From Myxococcaceae bacterium (lineage in GTDB: Bacteria > Myxococcota > Myxococcia > Myxococcales > Myxococcaceae): 34,311 bases of DNA. This document shows positions 1-22,746 of the stretch, one piece after another. Made by a program: the position numbers and the translations under genes. Location of the stretch: assembly GCA_019694575.1 (NCBI GenBank), contig JAIBBR010000050.1, positions 1 to 34,311 of the forward strand, written 5' to 3'. The notes under the pieces are model-generated. The model ran no database searches. It saw nothing but the letters and a program-made list of their open reading frames with translations, and had not been told where the DNA came from. Positions within the stretch are counted from its first letter, which is position 1; each line of letters begins with the position of its first letter.

Positions 1-26
1 CCATGCACTGGAGCGAATACAGGTGA
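1..26 (+). CDS. C-terminal end of an upstream gene (partial)
   Basis: Only the last seven codons (MHWSEYR) and a TGA at 24-26 are in the window. The stop overlaps the GTG start of the next gene by four bases (GTGA at 23-26). This is the same coupling seen at the next two gene junctions, so the cut gene is probably the previous member of the same operon. Too little is visible to name a family. Confidence 0.5.
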
Positions 27-1060
27 GTGCCCTCGCCCCGGTGCAGTGGGTGCGCCTCAACCCCTGGGTGCGCGTGCTTCGCCTGGAATACCAGGGCGAT
101 AATTTTCTCATTTGGTTCGGGGCCACTGCGTTGGCGGCAACGGCCAAAACTTTTCACTGCGGCTGGTTCTTGGTTGGGCTTGTGATGCTCGTCTTGGCGC
201 AAGCAGCGCTGGAACTGCTTGACGGGTACTACGATGATGCTCACGGCGCGCACGGGGTGAAACACCACAACGCTCCGCGGTGGACGGGAGGCAGCGGCGT
301 ACTGGCGGCAGGGCTCTTGTCGCCGACGTCAGTCAAAAAAGTCGCCTGGACCTGCGGCCTTTTGGCTACCGCGCTCTTCATTTGGGTAACGGCAGAACGA
401 ACAGGCTGGGCCGGGTTTGCAATAGGGCTTGCCGGCGCTGTCGCTGGAGCCGGTTGGGCCATGCCACCTTTGAAGCTGTCTTATCGGGGCTTGGGGGAAA
501 TCACGCAGGGCGTGGTTTTGGGGCCGCTCATGGCTGCGCAGGCGTGGACGATAGCCAGTGGCCATTTCGAGTGGAAAGCGCTTTTGGTGGGGCTGCCTTT
601 CGGTGCCTTGGAGCTCGCAATGGGGCTCCTCAACAACTTCATCGATCGCGAGAGCGACGCACGTGCTTCGAAAAAAAACTGGGTTGTTCGGCATGGAGCG
701 CAAGCGGGCGCCGTGGCACATGCGGCCGCGCTCACGCTGGGTTTTGCCTTCCACGCTTACTTGGTGTGGGTCGGAACACTGCCCATGCTGCTGGCCTGCT
801 GTCTGCTGCCGGCCACGCTGGCGTGGAACGCCTCTCGAAAAGTTTTCGCGGTGGTGCGGTCGCCGTCGGCAGAACAGGCGCAACGGCTGGCGGCAGAATT
901 TCCGACGTATGGGGTGGTGACGGCGTATGGGCTGACCTTCGTTTTCGCCTCTCTCGCATGGCTGTCGCAGCGCGAGCCAGAAATCAGCCTCTGGCTCGCG
1001 GTGGCATTCGCACTCTGCTACGCGCCGGTACTCGGAGTGCTCTGGGCGAGGCGAATATGA
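23..1060 (+). CDS. UbiA-superfamily prenyltransferase, MenA-like
   Basis: This is a polytopic membrane protein of 345 residues. UbiA enzymes transfer a polyprenyl chain to an aromatic or other acceptor using Mg2+ held by two Asp-rich motifs. Both are visible: D67-x3-D71 in LLDGYYDDAHG and D208-x3-D212 in NNFIDRESDARASKK. Between them GGSGVLAAGLLSP (about 89-101) resembles the GGSRVL.GL.SP stretch of MenA, so the MenA branch is the closest family by eye. The first motif has D67 where UbiA and MenA usually have Asn, so the acceptor may differ from dihydroxynaphthoate. The GTG start overlaps the preceding stop by four bases, and its own stop overlaps the downstream methyltransferase start (ATGA). 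The family is confident; the substrate is not. Confidence 0.85.
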   Translation: MSALAPVQWVRLNPWVRVLRLEYQGDNFLIWFGATALAATAKTFHCGWFLVGLVMLVLAQAALELLDGYYDDAHGAHGVKHHNAPRWTGGSGVLAAGLLSPTSVKKVAWTCGLLATALFIWVTAERTGWAGFAIGLAGAVAGAGWAMPPLKLSYRGLGEITQGVVLGPLMAAQAWTIASGHFEWKALLVGLPFGALELAMGLLNNFIDRESDARASKKNWVVRHGAQAGAVAHAAALTLGFAFHAYLVWVGTLPMLLACCLLPATLAWNASRKVFAVVRSPSAEQAQRLAAEFPTYGVVTAYGLTFVFASLAWLSQREPEISLWLAVAFALCYAPVLGVLWARRI

Positions 1061-1665
1061 GCTCTGTCTACGAACGAAGTGCTCCTGTCTATAACGCCGT
1101 CTCGCGGTTGCTTGTCTTCGAGCGAAAGCTGCGAAATGCGGCCGCCCAAGCCCTCGGAGCTCCGGAACGGGTGCTCGATGTCGGCTGTGGAACCGGTTTT
1201 CAGTTCGCCCATTTGCCGGCGTCGACGCGTCACGTGATTGGCGTCGATATCAGCCCAAGTTCTCTGGCGGTGGCGCACCAAGTGGCCGCCAAACGCGGGC
1301 TGGCCTTCATCGGCATCGTGGGTGACATGGCAGACACCATTTTACCGGCCCATTCGTTCGATGCCGCTATCGGGGTATTCTCAATGAGCGTCATTCCCCG
1401 ATGGGAAATGGCGCTCACCCGTTGCGTGAAAGCCGTAAAGCCGGGTGGAAAAATCGTTCTTCTGGAACAAGAGCGGGTAACGCGGGGAACAGCACGGCTT
1501 TTCAACCCCCTCGCCCAAGTCGTCAACCAATTGCTCGGGGCCGATAACACGCGCAGCTATGGTCCCACCCTCGAAGCCATGGGGTGTTCCGTCGAGAAAC
1601 ACCCGGCCTGGGGTGGTTTGTACGCGCTTACTGTTGCGGTGAAACCAAAGGCAGCAGCTCGATGA
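1057..1665 (+). CDS. SAM-dependent class I methyltransferase (UbiE/MenG-like)
   Basis: This is a soluble protein of 202 residues. The SAM-binding motif I VLDVGCGTGFQF lies at about 39-50, followed by an acidic motif II (VIGVDIS) and a post-I region with GDMAD. The C-terminal half has VKPGGKIVLLEQE, typical of class I methyltransferases. The N-terminal YERSAPVYNAVSRLL resembles the UbiE/MenG start (YD..A..Y...). The frame is open well upstream, but ATG at 1057 overlaps the prenyltransferase TGA as ATGA, so I start there. Position between a UbiA-type prenyltransferase and a diiron protein suggests methylation of a prenylated ring. Other small-molecule substrates cannot be excluded from sequence. 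Confidence 0.8.
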   Translation: MSSVYERSAPVYNAVSRLLVFERKLRNAAAQALGAPERVLDVGCGTGFQFAHLPASTRHVIGVDISPSSLAVAHQVAAKRGLAFIGIVGDMADTILPAHSFDAAIGVFSMSVIPRWEMALTRCVKAVKPGGKIVLLEQERVTRGTARLFNPLAQVVNQLLGADNTRSYGPTLEAMGCSVEKHPAWGGLYALTVAVKPKAAAR

Positions 1666-2378
1666 ACCCAGTCGCGCTCAAGTACACCGACGGGGTTCGA
1701 CGTCGCCACGGTGAGCCCGACTGGACAAAGCCCTGTTTCCCTCAGCGAGACGAGCGGCTGGCGAAATGGCGCGCAGCCCAAGCCATGCCGACTGTCTCCA
1801 CACCGCCCGAGAGGGGGAGTCGACTCTCGCTGTGGACAGAATGCTTGGCCAAAATTCGGAGCGCCGAGCGCTTCGCCGTCGAGCAGGGGTTTTCTGGAAA
1901 CGACCCCGTACTCAAATTGCTGGAGTTAGAAGAGCGTTACCACAGCGACCTGCTCGGAGAAGTTCTCCAGCAGCTCGGAGCAGCGCCCCTTTTGCGCCGG
2001 CCTTCTGTCCTCACGCGGGTTCTGTTTTGGGCGATGAGCGCCCTTCCCGCGGCGCTGCACCAGATTGAAGTTTATCTGGGCGAGCGCGTTGGGCTGGCGG
2101 TCTTTCTTTTTCTGCGCGCGCAATTGCCGAGCGTGGCGTCACCCACTCACCTGCCCTTTCTCGAATTGCTCTTCGACGACGTGATTGCCGATGAAGAAGC
2201 CCACGTCTGGTACGCCCAGGCGCTCCTTTCCACAAGGCAGCTCGCTGTCGCCAAATGGCTTCTGCCACTCACCCGCTGGGCTGTGACGCAAGAGCTACCC
2301 GAGCTTCAAGCGTTGGCGGGCAAAAAGGGTATTCAATTCATGCTCGCGCAGCTTGAAAGCGCCAACGACACGGTTTGA
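1662..2378 (+). CDS. Ferritin-like diiron carboxylate protein
   Basis: This is a 238-residue protein starting at an ATG that overlaps the methyltransferase stop (ATGA at 1662-1665). It carries two ExxH motifs, E91-R-Y-H94 in ELEERYHSDLL and E178-E-A-H181 in DEEAHVWYA. Acidic residues sit in the helices before each: E60/E69 before the first, E136/E141 before the second. This E..ExxH..E..ExxH layout is the ferritin-like diiron pattern, also used by the Coq7 quinone hydroxylase and the MiaE tRNA hydroxylase. Given the UbiA-like and UbiE-like neighbours, a ring hydroxylase in the same pathway is an attractive inference. I cannot assign it to Coq7 by eye, and the 50-residue N-terminal extension is unexplained. 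Confidence 0.65.
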   Translation: MNPVALKYTDGVRRRHGEPDWTKPCFPQRDERLAKWRAAQAMPTVSTPPERGSRLSLWTECLAKIRSAERFAVEQGFSGNDPVLKLLELEERYHSDLLGEVLQQLGAAPLLRRPSVLTRVLFWAMSALPAALHQIEVYLGERVGLAVFLFLRAQLPSVASPTHLPFLELLFDDVIADEEAHVWYAQALLSTRQLAVAKWLLPLTRWAVTQELPELQALAGKKGIQFMLAQLESANDTV

Positions 2379-2413: not shown

Positions 2414-3622
2414 GTGAACGTGAAATTCGTCAGGTGGTCGACCCTCACCGCGCTCGTGGTGTGTACTGCGGCAGGGGGCCAAGTACATGCCCCCACCGCT
2501 GGCGCTCCTTCTGACGAGCCCACGCCGAGCAAAGCCACAGGTGAAATTGCCCACAGCGAAGAAAAAGACACGCCGCCCAAACTCAAAGGTTTCGATGTCG
2601 AGCTGACGCTGTTCGATTCTTCGGGCGTTTACTTCGCCGCCGAAGCCTACACGCAGACGCTCTCGCTCGAAATCACGCCGTCGTACGCGTTCGGCAAGCA
2701 GTGGTTCAAAGGCAGTTGGGGCGAAAAACTGTCGGCCAGCGTGCGCCTGCCGATTGAAGCCGAGCTCACCGGAAACGACCCTCGCTTTCGCGGGCGTTCC
2801 TTCGCTTCACCTTCACTCTTCGATTTTCCTGAGCAGGTGGTGATTGACGAAAACTCAGAGGTCACCACGTCGGGCAGCGTCGAAGGGCTGGCGCACCAAC
2901 CCGTGCTCTTAGGAGACCTGTGGCTCGGCGTTTCACACAACAAGCTCTACGTCATTCCCAAGCTCGAGGTAACGCTGGCCGCCAACATGCGGGCGGTCAT
3001 TCCCACTTCAGTCGCCAGCCGCAACTCAGGCCTCATCACCACACTTTCGCTGGGTCTGTCGGCAGAACGCGAATTCGGCCCCCTCACCTTGAGCTACGTC
3101 TTTCGGCCCGCGAAATATTTCTATTCGCGCAGCTCGCCCGCTCTCATTCCTCTCACCGAAACCGTGCAGGTCAACGGCCGCGAGACGACGCTGTGGCGCC
3201 CCGATTCAACCGGCAACACCAACCCCCACTTCGGCCTTTCACATGCAGTGGAGCTGTCGGCGAAATTGCCGCTCGGCTTTTCATTGAGCGCGTCGTACGT
3301 GCTGACGCAAGTGGCTCCGTTACCGCTGAGCGGTTGCGCGGTCGAAGGCATACCCACCGCTGACGTGTGCCGCGACGGGCCACTGGTGAGCGATTTGCGT
3401 GGCAGCGCCTGGCGTGAAGACCACTGGTTTTCAGCCCAAGCTGACCTCGAATTGAAAGCCTTCACCGTCTCGCTCGGGGTCTCGACTTACCGGCCGCTGC
3501 GTGACACCAACGGCTCAGTCTCACAACCATTCTGGTCTGCCAACCGCAACAATTACACCACCGTATTTCTCTCTGTCGCCACCAGCCTGTCGCAAGTGGC
3601 CGAGCTGTACGACCCGCCTTGA
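2414..3622 (+). CDS. Secreted outer-membrane beta-barrel-like protein
   Basis: This is a 402-residue protein with a GTG start and an N-terminal signal peptide (WSTLTALVVCTAAGG). A short Pro/Glu-rich linker follows, then a long stretch of alternating hydrophobic residues typical of transmembrane beta-strands, for example LSASVRLPIEAEL, LEVTLAANMRAVI, LTTLSLGLSAE and FSLSASYVL. No catalytic motif is visible. The single Cys pair (about 300-315, GCAVEG and DVCRDG) may form a disulfide in an external loop. The gene ends 14 bases before the metalloprotease start, so the two are very likely co-transcribed. It could be a surface partner or export path for the protease, but that is inference from adjacency only. 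Confidence 0.6.
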   Translation: MNVKFVRWSTLTALVVCTAAGGQVHAPTAGAPSDEPTPSKATGEIAHSEEKDTPPKLKGFDVELTLFDSSGVYFAAEAYTQTLSLEITPSYAFGKQWFKGSWGEKLSASVRLPIEAELTGNDPRFRGRSFASPSLFDFPEQVVIDENSEVTTSGSVEGLAHQPVLLGDLWLGVSHNKLYVIPKLEVTLAANMRAVIPTSVASRNSGLITTLSLGLSAEREFGPLTLSYVFRPAKYFYSRSSPALIPLTETVQVNGRETTLWRPDSTGNTNPHFGLSHAVELSAKLPLGFSLSASYVLTQVAPLPLSGCAVEGIPTADVCRDGPLVSDLRGSAWREDHWFSAQADLELKAFTVSLGVSTYRPLRDTNGSVSQPFWSANRNNYTTVFLSVATSLSQVAELYDPP

Positions 3623-3636
3623 GAAAGAAGCAACTT

Positions 3637-6600
3637 ATGCGTTCCCTTCTCTTTCCACGCCTCGCTTACCTCGCGCTCGCCGCGGTCTGCTTCGCCTGTG
3701 GAGGCCCCACTCACCCCCGCAACACCTTGCAGGTCGACGCCATCGCCAAGAGCGACCTCAACGGCGAGTGGTACTACCGGCAAACCGTGGTGGGCGTGCC
3801 CTTCAGCACCGGCTTCACCTTCGTCGGAGAGCAGGGCGACAACGAGATGGAAAAAATCGTGTGGGACATTCAAGAAGATGTCCTCACCGCGCGGCGCGCT
3901 TACGAATATGTGCGGGGCAGCGAAGCGGGCGAGCCGCACCAAGTCTCAGGCTCCGAAGAGAAATACCAAGGCGCGCCGGTGGCCGCGTTTCGCATCAAGA
4001 GCCACTTCGACATCATTCGCGAATACAACACGTCGACCGGTGAAGAATACGACAAGCTGATTGAGAGCGAAGAGCGCAAGTGGTTCGAGCGCCAATTCAT
4101 TCGCGTCAATTGGGCCGAGAACCTGGTCACCAACTTCAACTTTTTGGCTGACTACAACACCGGTTCGGTCACGCCCATTAAGCAAGACCCGGTGCCGTAC
4201 TACATTTCTGACCCCACCGACCCCGACGCGTTTCGTTTGGAGCGCGATTCGTCGACCGAGCCCGCCAACTACATGGAGCTGACGCAGAAGCTGGTGGCGT
4301 CTCCCGAAATGGTGACCTTCGAAGACGGCACCTCGTGGCCATTGTGCTTTTTGGAGTACGCCACCCAAGACTGCGCCAGCCAAGAAATCAAAGTGCGCAA
4401 CAGCTTTCGCCGTGTCACCCCGCGTGACTTCGACCCCACTGCGTACGACGACCATTCGATGGAACGCTTCGGCTACTTCACCACCGAGCGCAAGAGCTAC
4501 AACCGCCAGTACGGCGTGACTGAGCCGGGCCGCGTGCGTTTGCTCAACCGTCACAACGTGTGGCGCAAGTCGTTGTCGACGCAAGCTTGCGTCAAAGACG
4601 CTGACTGTGGAACAGCCGCTCCCGGCGTGCGCTGCATTACCGAGCTGCCTGATGCACCGGTTGACGCCAGCGGCGCGGTGACCGGCACCTGCTCGTTGGC
4701 GTACGCGGTGCGCAATTTAGAAAACCCGGCCGATACAAACAGCCGAGACTTGGGTCCAGCGCCCATCGTTTATTACGTGAACGACACCTTCCCCGCTGAC
4801 TTGAAGGGCATGGCTGCCGAACTGGGCCGGCAATACAACGAGGTGTTTCGTAACATCGTCAAGACGGCGTCGGGCAAAGAGCCCACCTCGCCCACCTTCG
4901 TGGTGTGCCCCAATAACCCGGTACAAGCGGGCGACCCCGAGGTGTGTGGCAGCCCCGGCACCCACCCGCGCATCGGCGACATTCGTTTCAACATGCTCTA
5001 TTGGATAGACGACCCCACCAGCGCGGGGCTTTTGGGGTACGGGCCAAACTCCAACGACCCCGAGACGGGCGAAACCATCGCCGCCACCGCGTTCATTTAT
5101 GGCGCTGAAGTCGACCTCTATGCCGCTTACGCGCGCGACTTGGTGCGCTTGGTGAATGGCGAAATGTCACCCGACCAATTCATCGGCGGCGTCAACGTGC
5201 GCGACTGGGTAGCAGGCAACGCGTTTGGCGCCAAAGCCAAAACCGCGACGCAAGCCGAAGTCGAAGCGGCACAAGCGCACATGCAAACTGACTGGGTGAA
5301 AGGCCTGCCCAAAACGCCGCAGGTGAAGAAAGGCACTGTGAAAGCGCTGCGCGAAATGGTGCGCACCCGCGGACAAGCGCTCGCCCGCTCCCCGATGCTG
5401 GCGGGGCAGCCCGGCATGTCGGCGCAACGTCTGTCGCGGCTCAACGGCACCGACGTCGAGCGCAAGCTGCTCACGCCCGACGTGTTGATGGCACGGGGCA
5501 TCAACCCCCGCAGCACGCTCGGTACGCTCGACATCAGTAAGGTGCGCCCACTGCAGTTGGTGAGCTCGGCGCGTTCAAAGCACTTGCGGCTGCAACGGCA
5601 ACATTTGTCAGCGCATACCGTCGACATGGCTGCCACGCTCGATGACACCGTGGTGGGCTTCGCACTCGCGCAGAAGGGCCAAAACCCGCAAGCCGTGTGG
5701 AAACGCATTCGTGAGCTGGTGTTTCTTTCTACCGCGCTGCACGAAGTCGGCCACACGCTGGGCCTGCGCCACAACTTCGCGGGTTCTTATGACCCGATGA
5801 ACTACCCCAAACAATATTGGGACCTGCGCACCGCCAACGGCACCAAGACGCCCAAGCAACGCTACCTGGAGCCCGAGTCACCAGCTGAAATCAGCGGCAT
5901 CGCTTTGCCCGGAGGGCTGCGCGCAGGCATTTCTGAATTCATGCAATCGTCGGTGATGGACTACGGCGCCAACTTCAATTCAGACATTCAAGGCCTGGGT
6001 AAGTACGACAAGGCGGCGCTCAAGTTCGGCTATGGAAACGTGGTCGAAGTTTTCAACACCACGCGAGACACCTATTTCATTGGCGCGCTGCAGGCGGGTG
6101 TCACCTATGGCGAAACCTTGCCGGTGATGGTCGACTGCTCCGGCCAAAATTACGTCAGCTCGCACTACACGTCGCTGCCCGCCCAGGTCGATTTAGAATC
6201 TCGCTCCGACGTGCCTTATGCGTCGATTCGCAGCGAAGTGCTGCGGCCCGACTGCGAGTATGCCGACCCCGTGCTGGTCGACGCCAACAAACGGGTGATG
6301 GTGCCGTACAAGTTCTGTTCTGACGAGTTCGAGGGTGTTTCCACCGGGTGCGAAGCCTTCGACCGCGGCGCCGATGTTTACGAAGTGGCCTCGAATGCGA
6401 TGACCACGTACCGAAACTATTACGTGTTCGACGCTTTTCGACGGCAGCGCCTGGGCTTCGACCCCGAGGCCTATTGGGACCGCGTCTATTCGCGCTACCT
6501 CAACACCTTGCGTAACCAGATGCAGTTTTATGTGCTCGACCGCTCGTTCTACGACGACGCTGACCCCTCGTTCTGGACCGACCCCAACGGTTACGGCCCG

Positions 6601-7464
6601 TACACGCTGGCGGTGTCGCAGGGCTTCGACTTCTTGGGAGACATGCTGATGACACCCGAGCCCGGGCCGTACCAAAAATACATCGGAGACGACGGCCGCA
6701 GCGCGTTCTACATGGACGAGTACAGTTCTGACCCGCCCGCGTTTTCTTTGAGCATCGGTGAAGCGCGTTACTTCGAAACCAGCTGGGACTACGACTCGGG
6801 TTACTACTGGTACGACCAAGTGCGAAACGTGGGTAGCTTCATCGACAAAGTGTCAGCGATTGCCGCCATCACCGACCCCGAGACGTACTTCGTCGGCAAA
6901 GACACCGCGGCTGACGAGCGGCAGTACGCCATTAATTACTTCCGGCTTTACCCGGAGCAGACGCTCAATGTGTTTTCGGCCGCGCTCACCGACCGGTGGG
7001 ACAAGCTGGCCCCATTGTGGACCGGCAGCCGCTTCGTGAAGCGCCCCATTTCAGGACCCATCGGAGCGCCGGCCGCGGGTGAGTACCCCGTCGACCCACA
7101 GCTCGACTTCACCGTGCAGCTGTGGATGGCGAGCTTGGGTAACGCGCTTATTCCCGCCACGTTCGACCCAACCTATTCTGATTCAGCGCGGCTGTGGCTC
7201 GCGGGTAACGGCGCGCAGATTTCGCCCACCTTACCCACCGTTACGTTTGAAGACCCATTCAGCGGCAAGACGTACACCGCCGTCTCATACAAGCAGGGCA
7301 GCAACGAAAACGGCATCGCAGCGCGCATGGTGGCCCGCGCCAATGAGCTCAAGGGGCGTCTCGACGCGATGGACCCAGCAACGACGACAGCGCTCAAGAG
7401 CTACATCGAGTTGCTCGAGTCGCAGCGTTCAATCAGCGCGGTGTACGCCGACCCGGTGCAATAA
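3637..7464 (+). CDS. Large metzincin-type zinc metalloprotease, probable lipoprotein
   Basis: This is a 1275-residue protein. The frame is open from a TTG at 3619, but the ATG at 3637 follows AGAAAGAAG at a good distance and begins a clean signal peptide (MRSLLFPRLAYLALAAVC) ending FAC-GG, which suggests a lipoprotein. The zinc site HEVGHTLGLRH gives ligands H702, H706 and H712 and catalytic E703. The Met-turn SSVMDY follows with M774. Together these define a metzincin. The architecture resembles large bacterial proteases of the DUF5117/DUF4953 type, but I cannot confirm those domains by eye. A Cys-rich insert (about 315-352, C..DADC..C...C) resembles inserts in myxobacterial secreted proteins. 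The C-terminal 400 residues are rich in Tyr and Asp and unassigned. Confidence 0.8.
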   Translation: MRSLLFPRLAYLALAAVCFACGGPTHPRNTLQVDAIAKSDLNGEWYYRQTVVGVPFSTGFTFVGEQGDNEMEKIVWDIQEDVLTARRAYEYVRGSEAGEPHQVSGSEEKYQGAPVAAFRIKSHFDIIREYNTSTGEEYDKLIESEERKWFERQFIRVNWAENLVTNFNFLADYNTGSVTPIKQDPVPYYISDPTDPDAFRLERDSSTEPANYMELTQKLVASPEMVTFEDGTSWPLCFLEYATQDCASQEIKVRNSFRRVTPRDFDPTAYDDHSMERFGYFTTERKSYNRQYGVTEPGRVRLLNRHNVWRKSLSTQACVKDADCGTAAPGVRCITELPDAPVDASGAVTGTCSLAYAVRNLENPADTNSRDLGPAPIVYYVNDTFPADLKGMAAELGRQYNEVFRNIVKTASGKEPTSPTFVVCPNNPVQAGDPEVCGSPGTHPRIGDIRFNMLYWIDDPTSAGLLGYGPNSNDPETGETIAATAFIYGAEVDLYAAYARDLVRLVNGEMSPDQFIGGVNVRDWVAGNAFGAKAKTATQAEVEAAQAHMQTDWVKGLPKTPQVKKGTVKALREMVRTRGQALARSPMLAGQPGMSAQRLSRLNGTDVERKLLTPDVLMARGINPRSTLGTLDISKVRPLQLVSSARSKHLRLQRQHLSAHTVDMAATLDDTVVGFALAQKGQNPQAVWKRIRELVFLSTALHEVGHTLGLRHNFAGSYDPMNYPKQYWDLRTANGTKTPKQRYLEPESPAEISGIALPGGLRAGISEFMQSSVMDYGANFNSDIQGLGKYDKAALKFGYGNVVEVFNTTRDTYFIGALQAGVTYGETLPVMVDCSGQNYVSSHYTSLPAQVDLESRSDVPYASIRSEVLRPDCEYADPVLVDANKRVMVPYKFCSDEFEGVSTGCEAFDRGADVYEVASNAMTTYRNYYVFDAFRRQRLGFDPEAYWDRVYSRYLNTLRNQMQFYVLDRSFYDDADPSFWTDPNGYGPYTLAVSQGFDFLGDMLMTPEPGPYQKYIGDDGRSAFYMDEYSSDPPAFSLSIGEARYFETSWDYDSGYYWYDQVRNVGSFIDKVSAIAAITDPETYFVGKDTAADERQYAINYFRLYPEQTLNVFSAALTDRWDKLAPLWTGSRFVKRPISGPIGAPAAGEYPVDPQLDFTVQLWMASLGNALIPATFDPTYSDSARLWLAGNGAQISPTLPTVTFEDPFSGKTYTAVSYKQGSNENGIAARMVARANELKGRLDAMDPATTTALKSYIELLESQRSISAVYADPVQ

Positions 7465-22077: not shown

Positions 22078-22344
22078 TCAATTGAACGATGAACGAAAGC
22101 CTCGCTGTGCCGATTCGGACATAAGAGCACCACGGCAACCAAAGAAACTGACGGCGACCTTCACCGCCCCTTTGGAGCCAGGCTTGCGACGCCACAGGTA
22201 CCCAAGCGGAATGTCGGTTTGGTATTGCGCCTCTGTTAGCGGCTTCTGGGGCACCGTGGCTACGTTCGACGTGATCGTGATGTTCAGAGAAGGCGGCTGG
22301 ACGATGTACCCCGAACGGGCACTTGCGTGGCCGCTTTTAGACGC
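22078..22344 (-). pseudogene. Possible C-terminal remnant of a minus-strand gene
   Basis: An open stretch of 88 codons on the minus strand begins right after a stop inside the 8-bp repeat array and ends at TGA 22078-22080. It has no ATG near its 5' end. Part of it reads like a secreted or beta-rich protein (GYIVQPPSLNITITSNVA, then PLTEAQYQTDIPLGYLWRR). Third codon positions are mostly G or C. The same third positions are shared with an antisense frame on the plus strand, so this does not settle the strand. I favour the minus frame because the plus reading is rich in Trp, Arg and Cys. The 5' part would have been lost where the repeat array now stands. No family recognised. Confidence 0.35.
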
Positions 22345-22460
22345 TCAGACGCTCAGACGCTCAGACGCTCAGACGCTCAGACGCTCAGACGCTCAGACGC
22401 TCAGACGCTCAGACGCTCAGACGCTCAGACGCTCAGACGCTCAGACGCTCAGACGCTCAG
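22341..22460 (+). repeat. Octanucleotide tandem repeat, 15 perfect copies of ACGCTCAG
   Basis: Fifteen identical head-to-tail copies of ACGCTCAG fill exactly 120 bases. They are flanked by a partial AG on the left and ACG on the right. There are no spacers and the unit is not self-complementary. Eight is not a multiple of three, so any change in copy number shifts frame. On the plus strand all frames stay open and encode DAQTLRRS repeats. On the minus strand every frame meets TGA. Perfect identity suggests recent slippage or expansion. Confidence 0.97.
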
Positions 22461-22746
22461 ACGAGAAAAAACCCAGACCGCGAAAATAGAAAAGAAAAAA
22501 GCACACGTCAGGTCTCGTGATTGGCGCAGCACCGCATCTATGTCTTCAGCCAACCTCTCGGAACTCTCTCGGGCCGTCTCATTACCCCGAACAAGGTGCC
22601 AGTGCGCTCTTGAGCGCCGCCGCCGAAATGGTGCACGACGTGGGTTACGCCGAGTCGATGCGACCACTGCAAACTGGCTGGTATCCTCGCACTGCCGTTT
22701 CTCTTCGTCGCTGTGGTTCGCATTCGCGCTGATGAAACGTACCACC

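Follow-up and report, generated by a model that had tools for sequence, protein, structure and literature searches.

What might a membrane prenyltransferase, a methyltransferase and a diiron protein make together when their genes overlap at one end of a contig from a myxobacterium? The question is raised by contig JAIBBR010000050.1 (C96) of the Myxococcaceae bacterium assembly GCA_019694575.1 (5.28 Mb in 220 contigs, 98.9% complete). Its full length of 34,311 bases is called the window here, and the three genes at its left end are called the trio. A sequence-only reading had proposed an unusual quinone or prenylated-ring pathway for them. A prenylated-ring pathway remains the most economical reading of the locus, while the idea that the trio could be the main quinone pathway of the organism is unsupported, given the MenA and MenG encoded elsewhere in the genome and the lack of a COQ7 match. 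We give about even credence to the trio being an accessory, probably horizontally acquired cassette, in which an aromatic acceptor would be prenylated in the membrane by the UbiA enzyme, from a prenyl diphosphate, then methylated at C or O by the methyltransferase and oxidised with O2 on the ring or a side chain by the diiron protein. The product would be a prenylated, methylated and oxygenated aromatic, apart from the menaquinone of the genome's own men locus. That the three proteins act on one molecule we infer only from the coupling of their genes, and a single joint pathway, the order of its steps, the aromatic acceptor, the prenyl donor and an outside origin are all proposed with it.

A tightly packed trio at a contig edge

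The trio consists of tightly packed genes at the contig edge of a myxobacterial genome, base 1 of the window being that edge. The features at this end are as follows.

3 to 26, plus strand: possible last codons of an upstream gene (MHWSEYR and a stop), overlapping the UbiA start by 4 bases and cut by the contig edge.
23 to 1060, plus strand: UbiA-superfamily membrane prenyltransferase of 345 residues, MenA-like but divergent (PF01040, motifs and fold model).
1057 to 1665, plus strand: class I S-adenosylmethionine (SAM)-dependent methyltransferase of 202 residues (PF13649, PF08241 and PF01209, all over cut-off).
1662 to 2378, plus strand: ferritin-like diiron protein of 238 residues (ligands E69, E91, H94, E141, E178 and H181; fold model).

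The UbiA gene starts with GTG at 23, with GGAG 9 bases 5' of the start, and its stop ends at 1060. The methyltransferase gene starts with ATG at 1057, preceded by GAGG, and the diiron gene with ATG at 1662. Both junctions within the trio read ATGA, a 4-base overlap each, in agreement with what had first been described there. An overlapping upstream gene had also been claimed. A frame with TGA at 24-26 does overlap the UbiA GTG at 23 by 4 bases (GTGA); since its visible part amounts to seven residues (MHWSEYR), a gene cut by the contig edge is likely here rather than established. Bases 2-31, searched across the genome with up to two mismatches, matched at the window site only and revealed no overlapping contig. 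A scan for promoters and terminators gave no excess over shuffled sequence.

The prenyltransferase, the methyltransferase and the separate men locus

The genome has four UbiA genes, namely those for CyoE (contig C57; 266.9 bits, cut-off 210.3), MenA (C156; 331.2 bits, cut-off 264) and DPPR synthase (C204; 255.7 bits, cut-off 234) and the UbiA gene of the window. The MenA gene sits inside a men locus in which MenE, MenC, MenA, MenB, MenH, MenD and MenF are encoded in this order on one strand, with DAHP synthase and MenG on the other. NCBIfam models are matched over cut-off there by MenE (357 bits, cut-off 330), MenB (489, 380), MenH (245, 209), MenD (429, 244), isochorismate synthase (264.5, 225), MenG (239, 158) and DAHP synthase; MenC is under its cut-off (112 bits versus 131). 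The window UbiA lies outside this locus and, because C156 has a MenA and a MenG of its own, the window UbiA and methyltransferase are extra, divergent paralogues. The separate locus rules out the trio as the genome's main menaquinone pathway, and the earlier view that the trio is not a canonical menaquinone route is upheld. A genome-wide search for COQ7 (PF03232) returned no match, with a positive Caulobacter control. Three polyprenyl synthases are present, and a search for type III polyketide synthases gave one sub-threshold match, on C136.

The window UbiA belongs to the UbiA superfamily by its match to PF01040 (64.2 bits, cut-off 34.2). It also matches nine NCBIfam models of MenA type (eight for 1,4-dihydroxy-2-naphthoate (DHNA) polyprenyltransferase and one for phytyltransferase), none of them at cut-off (best 81.7 bits versus 277). 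These are its top NCBIfam matches and, together with the superfamily and an NNxxDxxxD second motif, they make up its likeness to MenA (NF004749, NF004751, TIGR00751). It differs in having DGYYD (residues 67-71) as its first Asp-rich motif, where MenA has the NDYxD type, in the loop that follows (TGGSGVL), in scoring under the cut-off of each of the nine MenA-type models and in coming from a genome with a separate MenA, to which it is 24% identical and from which it departs in both that motif and that loop. It is 22-29% identical to the nine homologues in the alignment. The Asp in place of the usual Asn that had been remarked upon is indeed there: the column of D67 holds N in 9 of 10 aligned UbiA rows, and D71 and the second motif (NNFIDRESD) are kept. 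The substitution is not diagnostic, since UBIAD1 has Ser at this column in a separate alignment.

An AlphaFold model of the window UbiA (predicted local distance difference test score, pLDDT, 75.5) matches UbiA structures, with AfUbiA (E 1.4e-05) and UBIAD1 (E 9.3e-05) as the best PDB matches in Foldseek and with an archaeal lipid synthase and digeranylgeranylglyceryl phosphate (DGGGP) synthase (6m31, 7bpu) ranked under them. UBIAD1 is also the sole PDB sequence match, although a remote and weak one (E 0.0053). In a 33-row UbiA tree, the protein appears on a branch of 4.01 outside the 24-row clade to which MenA belongs (support 100/99). UbiA-type enzymes are known from secondary metabolism, an example in the accessible text of PMC4044012 being a 1,6-dihydroxyphenazine prenyltransferase. 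Elsewhere, in large myxobacterial genomes, two divergently transcribed UbiA-family genes adjoin each other (Pfam; L107, 3987-6219, with L034 and L042 similar), one of them of TGGSRVL type; no men genes were seen near the L107 pair.

The methyltransferase has a glycine-rich SAM-binding motif, DVGCGTG, and matches six Pfam methyltransferase families over cut-off, including UbiE/COQ5 and PF08241 (PF13649, 66.4 bits, cut-off 27; PF01209 Ubie_methyltran, 37 bits, cut-off 20.1), which identifies it as a class I SAM methyltransferase. The best 25 of 70 NCBIfam models were all under cut-off, among them UbiE/MenG (TIGR01934, 45.2 bits versus 158.35), UbiG and MpqE. With UbiE/MenG and MpqE it shares the class I SAM fold, and with the genome's MenG an AP.Y start. 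It differs from them in score, with 45 bits on the former (cut-off 158) and 37 on the latter (cut-off 335), whereas the genome's separate MenG scores 239 and 192 bits on the same two models.

The diiron protein and its relatives

The third protein has the ligand pattern E, ExxH, E, ExxH, placed by its model on a four-helix bundle, and is ferritin-like by this predicted arrangement. In a 15-row alignment of the family, E91, H94, E141, E178 and H181 are invariant and E69 is missing from the truncated L057 alone. Pfam lists only PF00210 Ferritin, under its cut-off (16 bits, cut-off 24.5), and NCBIfam gives no match. COQ7 is a diiron demethoxyubiquinone hydroxylase with a ferritin-like diiron ligand pattern, which the window protein shares; the protein differs in having no Pfam match to COQ7 (PF03232) up to E 10. 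Neither MiaE nor AurF (PF11583) appears among its Pfam matches, and one relative (L015) has a sub-threshold AurF match (E 0.12, 12 bits versus 29.6).

Within the best 50 entries of a VIA structural comparison, the model of the diiron protein (pLDDT 89.6) matches ribonucleotide reductase (RNR) R2, the R2-like ligand-binding oxidase (R2lox) and the toluene/o-xylene monooxygenase (ToMO) hydroxylase at Z 15-16. The matches run over the whole length (212-222 of 238 residues), although at 7-13% identity, and a common fold of this kind shows no function. Foldseek gave no match at E 0.001 or better, its best being an aldehyde deformylating oxygenase (0.044), R2lox (0.052) and COQ7 (7sss_E, 0.074). On the strength of the six ligands and the fold model, we read the protein as ferritin-like and of R2 type, with no close solved relative. 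A profile of the family alignment run against PDB sequences reached bacterioferritins at E 0.23 or worse; its top match, a short one to DNA helicase II (E 0.0019), was taken as chance. The assignments that had been made for the three genes thus hold, by Pfam matches over cut-off for UbiA and the methyltransferase and by ligands and fold model for the diiron protein.

Relatives of the diiron protein were found in 10 of 195 Myxococcota genomes (E 0.001 or better), a count that includes its own genome and one false match, in G018 (L003, L017), where the open frames encode unrelated proteins and the match holds two stops. A species genome collection yielded ten loci, two of them from Woesearchaeota. 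Most relatives are 28-37% identical and 285-330 residues long, and a second group is 22-25% identical with 294-308 residues. These uncharacterised proteins keep the diiron ligands, while the window protein is shorter, at 238 residues, and those whose surroundings were read have no gene for UbiA or this methyltransferase nearby. The earlier reading had asked whether the diiron protein would group with MiaE or another non-quinone family: in Pfam it matches none of COQ7, MiaE and AurF, and it groups with these uncharacterised relatives. The family spans two domains, a hint of transfer.

Two further observations concern the surroundings of these relatives. In both Woesearchaeota loci, the diiron-family gene lies directly 3' of a methionyl-tRNA synthetase gene (L061, 5119-8801, by Pfam; L062, 4966-8636, by eye). 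Standalone diiron-family genes adjoin TetR-type regulators in L056 (7196-8801) and L018 (8833-10418; Pfam), neighbours that hint at inducible oxidases.

Distribution, origin and rival explanations

The trio did not recur in the 195 Myxococcota genomes searched, its own included. The window UbiA has matches in 137 of them (E 0.001), at no more than 34% identity, apart from itself, among the matches listed. None of 29 UbiA loci that were fetched with flanks of about 1.5 kb has the methyltransferase or diiron gene nearby, and at least 11 of the 29 lie among men genes (by eye). The methyltransferase matches 113 genomes at 1e-8, the best other match by E-value being 34% identical, and in six of its neighbourhoods neither UbiA nor diiron gene turned up at E 0.01. 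Neither the diiron protein nor UbiA had a match in plasmids, viral contigs scanned with UbiA and with the diiron alignment yielded nothing that was confirmed, and no description of such a trio appeared in the portions of the literature that our search returned. The trio brings together familiar superfamilies in a way that these searches encountered nowhere else.

Codon usage sets the trio apart. The synonymous codon scores of the methyltransferase (z -5.9), the diiron protein (-5.4) and UbiA (-5.0) are the three lowest of 35 genes tested in the genome, as measured against reference sets of other genes from which the trio was always left out, a choice that tilts the test somewhat. Those of the genome's MenA and MenG are +0.3 and +1.6. 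Atypical codon use and the lack of orthologues in our searches, along with the outlying position of the UbiA, suggest that the trio was acquired from outside.

Several observations weigh against an acquired cassette acting on one aromatic molecule. The trio is seen together here alone, which leaves adjacency in a single genome as the basis for linking the functions, and the 4-base overlaps that express this adjacency are common in the window, occurring in 7 of 13 same-strand neighbour pairs (from a hand-made list of 21 window genes). In the loci that were read, the relatives of the diiron protein stand apart from UbiA: 17 loci, which comprise 13 distinct ones after removal of three repeats and the false match and some of which have short flanks (4-8 kb), contain neither UbiA nor the methyltransferase at E 0.01, and the same is true of the loci in G126 and G127 (3.4 kb each). 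For the methyltransferase, a ring substrate is not indicated by the sequence, because its best NCBIfam model is the corrinoid protein-associated methyltransferase CpaM (58 bits), ahead of the UbiE/MenG models (45), and its top PDB matches are MitM proteins (E 1.8e-09); the CpaM score is itself below the cut-off of 180, and no corrinoid protein gene was seen beside the methyltransferase gene. The Z of 15-16 for the diiron model is only modestly above the value of about 14 reached by helical models that lack a clear match. Long branches, of which the program warns, leave the tree placement of the window UbiA unsure, and DPPR synthase (branch 8.66) is surely misplaced inside the 24-row MenA clade. 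Finally, two other window genes come near the trio in codon score (z -4.4 each), and odd codon use may reflect low expression instead of transfer.

These points bear differently on the other explanations. We consider it unlikely that the trio makes a second respiratory or antioxidant isoprenoid quinone, prenylated, methylated and hydroxylated, beside menaquinone. The steps proposed for the trio, prenylation, methylation and diiron oxidation, are of the quinone type, and the window UbiA stands nearest to MenA-type models and has UBIAD1 as its sole PDB sequence match. There is also a precedent in the accessible text of PMC13386864, which reports O2-dependent hydroxylation in plastoquinone synthesis and a new methyl-plastoquinone. 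On the other side stand the menaquinone genes elsewhere in the genome, the lack of a COQ7 match, a methyltransferase far under the UbiE/MenG, UbiG and MpqE cut-offs and the presence of a single oxidase, with no gene for making the head group seen next to the trio. It seems quite unlikely that the trio instead tailors menaquinone, acting on DHNA or demethylmenaquinone to give a side-branch form that differs in prenyl chain, methyl position or hydroxylation. The men locus should provide DHNA, and a MenA-like UbiA and a UbiE-like methyltransferase do adjoin the diiron protein, but the divergence of this UbiA from the genome's MenA in overall identity, first motif and TGGSGVL loop, and its position outside the MenA clade, argue against this route.

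That there is no joint pathway at all, and that three acquired or drifting genes are adjacent by chance with the diiron protein working as its standalone relatives do, we judge very unlikely. The 13 distinct loci of those relatives and the failure to find a second genome with the trio would fit such an arrangement, whereas it is at odds with two 4-base overlaps in a row and with codon usage that is atypical to a similar degree in all three genes. Membrane lipid modification, with UbiA prenylating a non-aromatic acceptor in the manner of the archaeal DGGGP synthase and the other two enzymes modifying the lipid, is highly improbable: the matches of the UbiA model to 6m31 and 7bpu that favour it are at the level of the fold and rank under AfUbiA and UBIAD1, and the NCBIfam matches are to MenA-type models, not to geranylgeranylglyceryl phosphate (GGGP) transferases.

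If the three proteins act together, as in the accessory aromatic pathway that we prefer, the trio would be a small cassette for prenylated aromatics whose diiron oxidase comes from an unnamed family present in Myxococcota and Woesearchaeota, and it would set that family for the first time in a pathway open to testing. A bolder version, very unlikely in our estimate, is that a myxobacterium which also makes menaquinone has a dedicated pathway to a prenylated quinone or quinol not described before, with a ferritin-like diiron oxygenase of this uncharacterised family as ring hydroxylase; aerobic hydroxylation of quinones by a diiron enzyme would then have evolved separately from COQ7. Were the product a quinone, its synthesis would employ a diiron enzyme independently of COQ7.

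Two genes that begin 35 bases 3' of the trio, and that overlap each other by 4 bases, lie outside it.

2414 to 3622, plus strand: probable beta-barrel protein of the outer membrane (judged by eye, without a Pfam match).
3619 to 7464, plus strand: metzincin-type metalloprotease of 1281 residues (PF16313 Met-zincin; HEVGHTLGLRH).

They were rejected as members of the trio because they occur together without it in all five relatives read, drawn from 15 other genomes that match the outer-membrane-like gene, at 40-51% and 60-65% identity respectively. In none of the five is the trio found upstream of the pair; for one of these genomes (G019), where a contig opens with the pair, what lies 5' of it was read only from another contig whose end probably matches. 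The pair looks like an independent unit. A FAD-linked oxidase gene lies 5' of it in three relatives and was considered as the cut upstream gene of the window, but its product ends in LNPGVLFD or LNPGVLFDP and not in MHWSEYR. In G025, a methyltransferase matching that of the window (32% over 100 residues, E 5e-07) is encoded just 3' of the metzincin, with neither UbiA nor diiron gene. Further along the window, at 22339-22463, lies a perfect tandem array of the 8-base unit AGACGCTC (15.6 copies, 100% matches), possibly a slippage (phase-variable) site.

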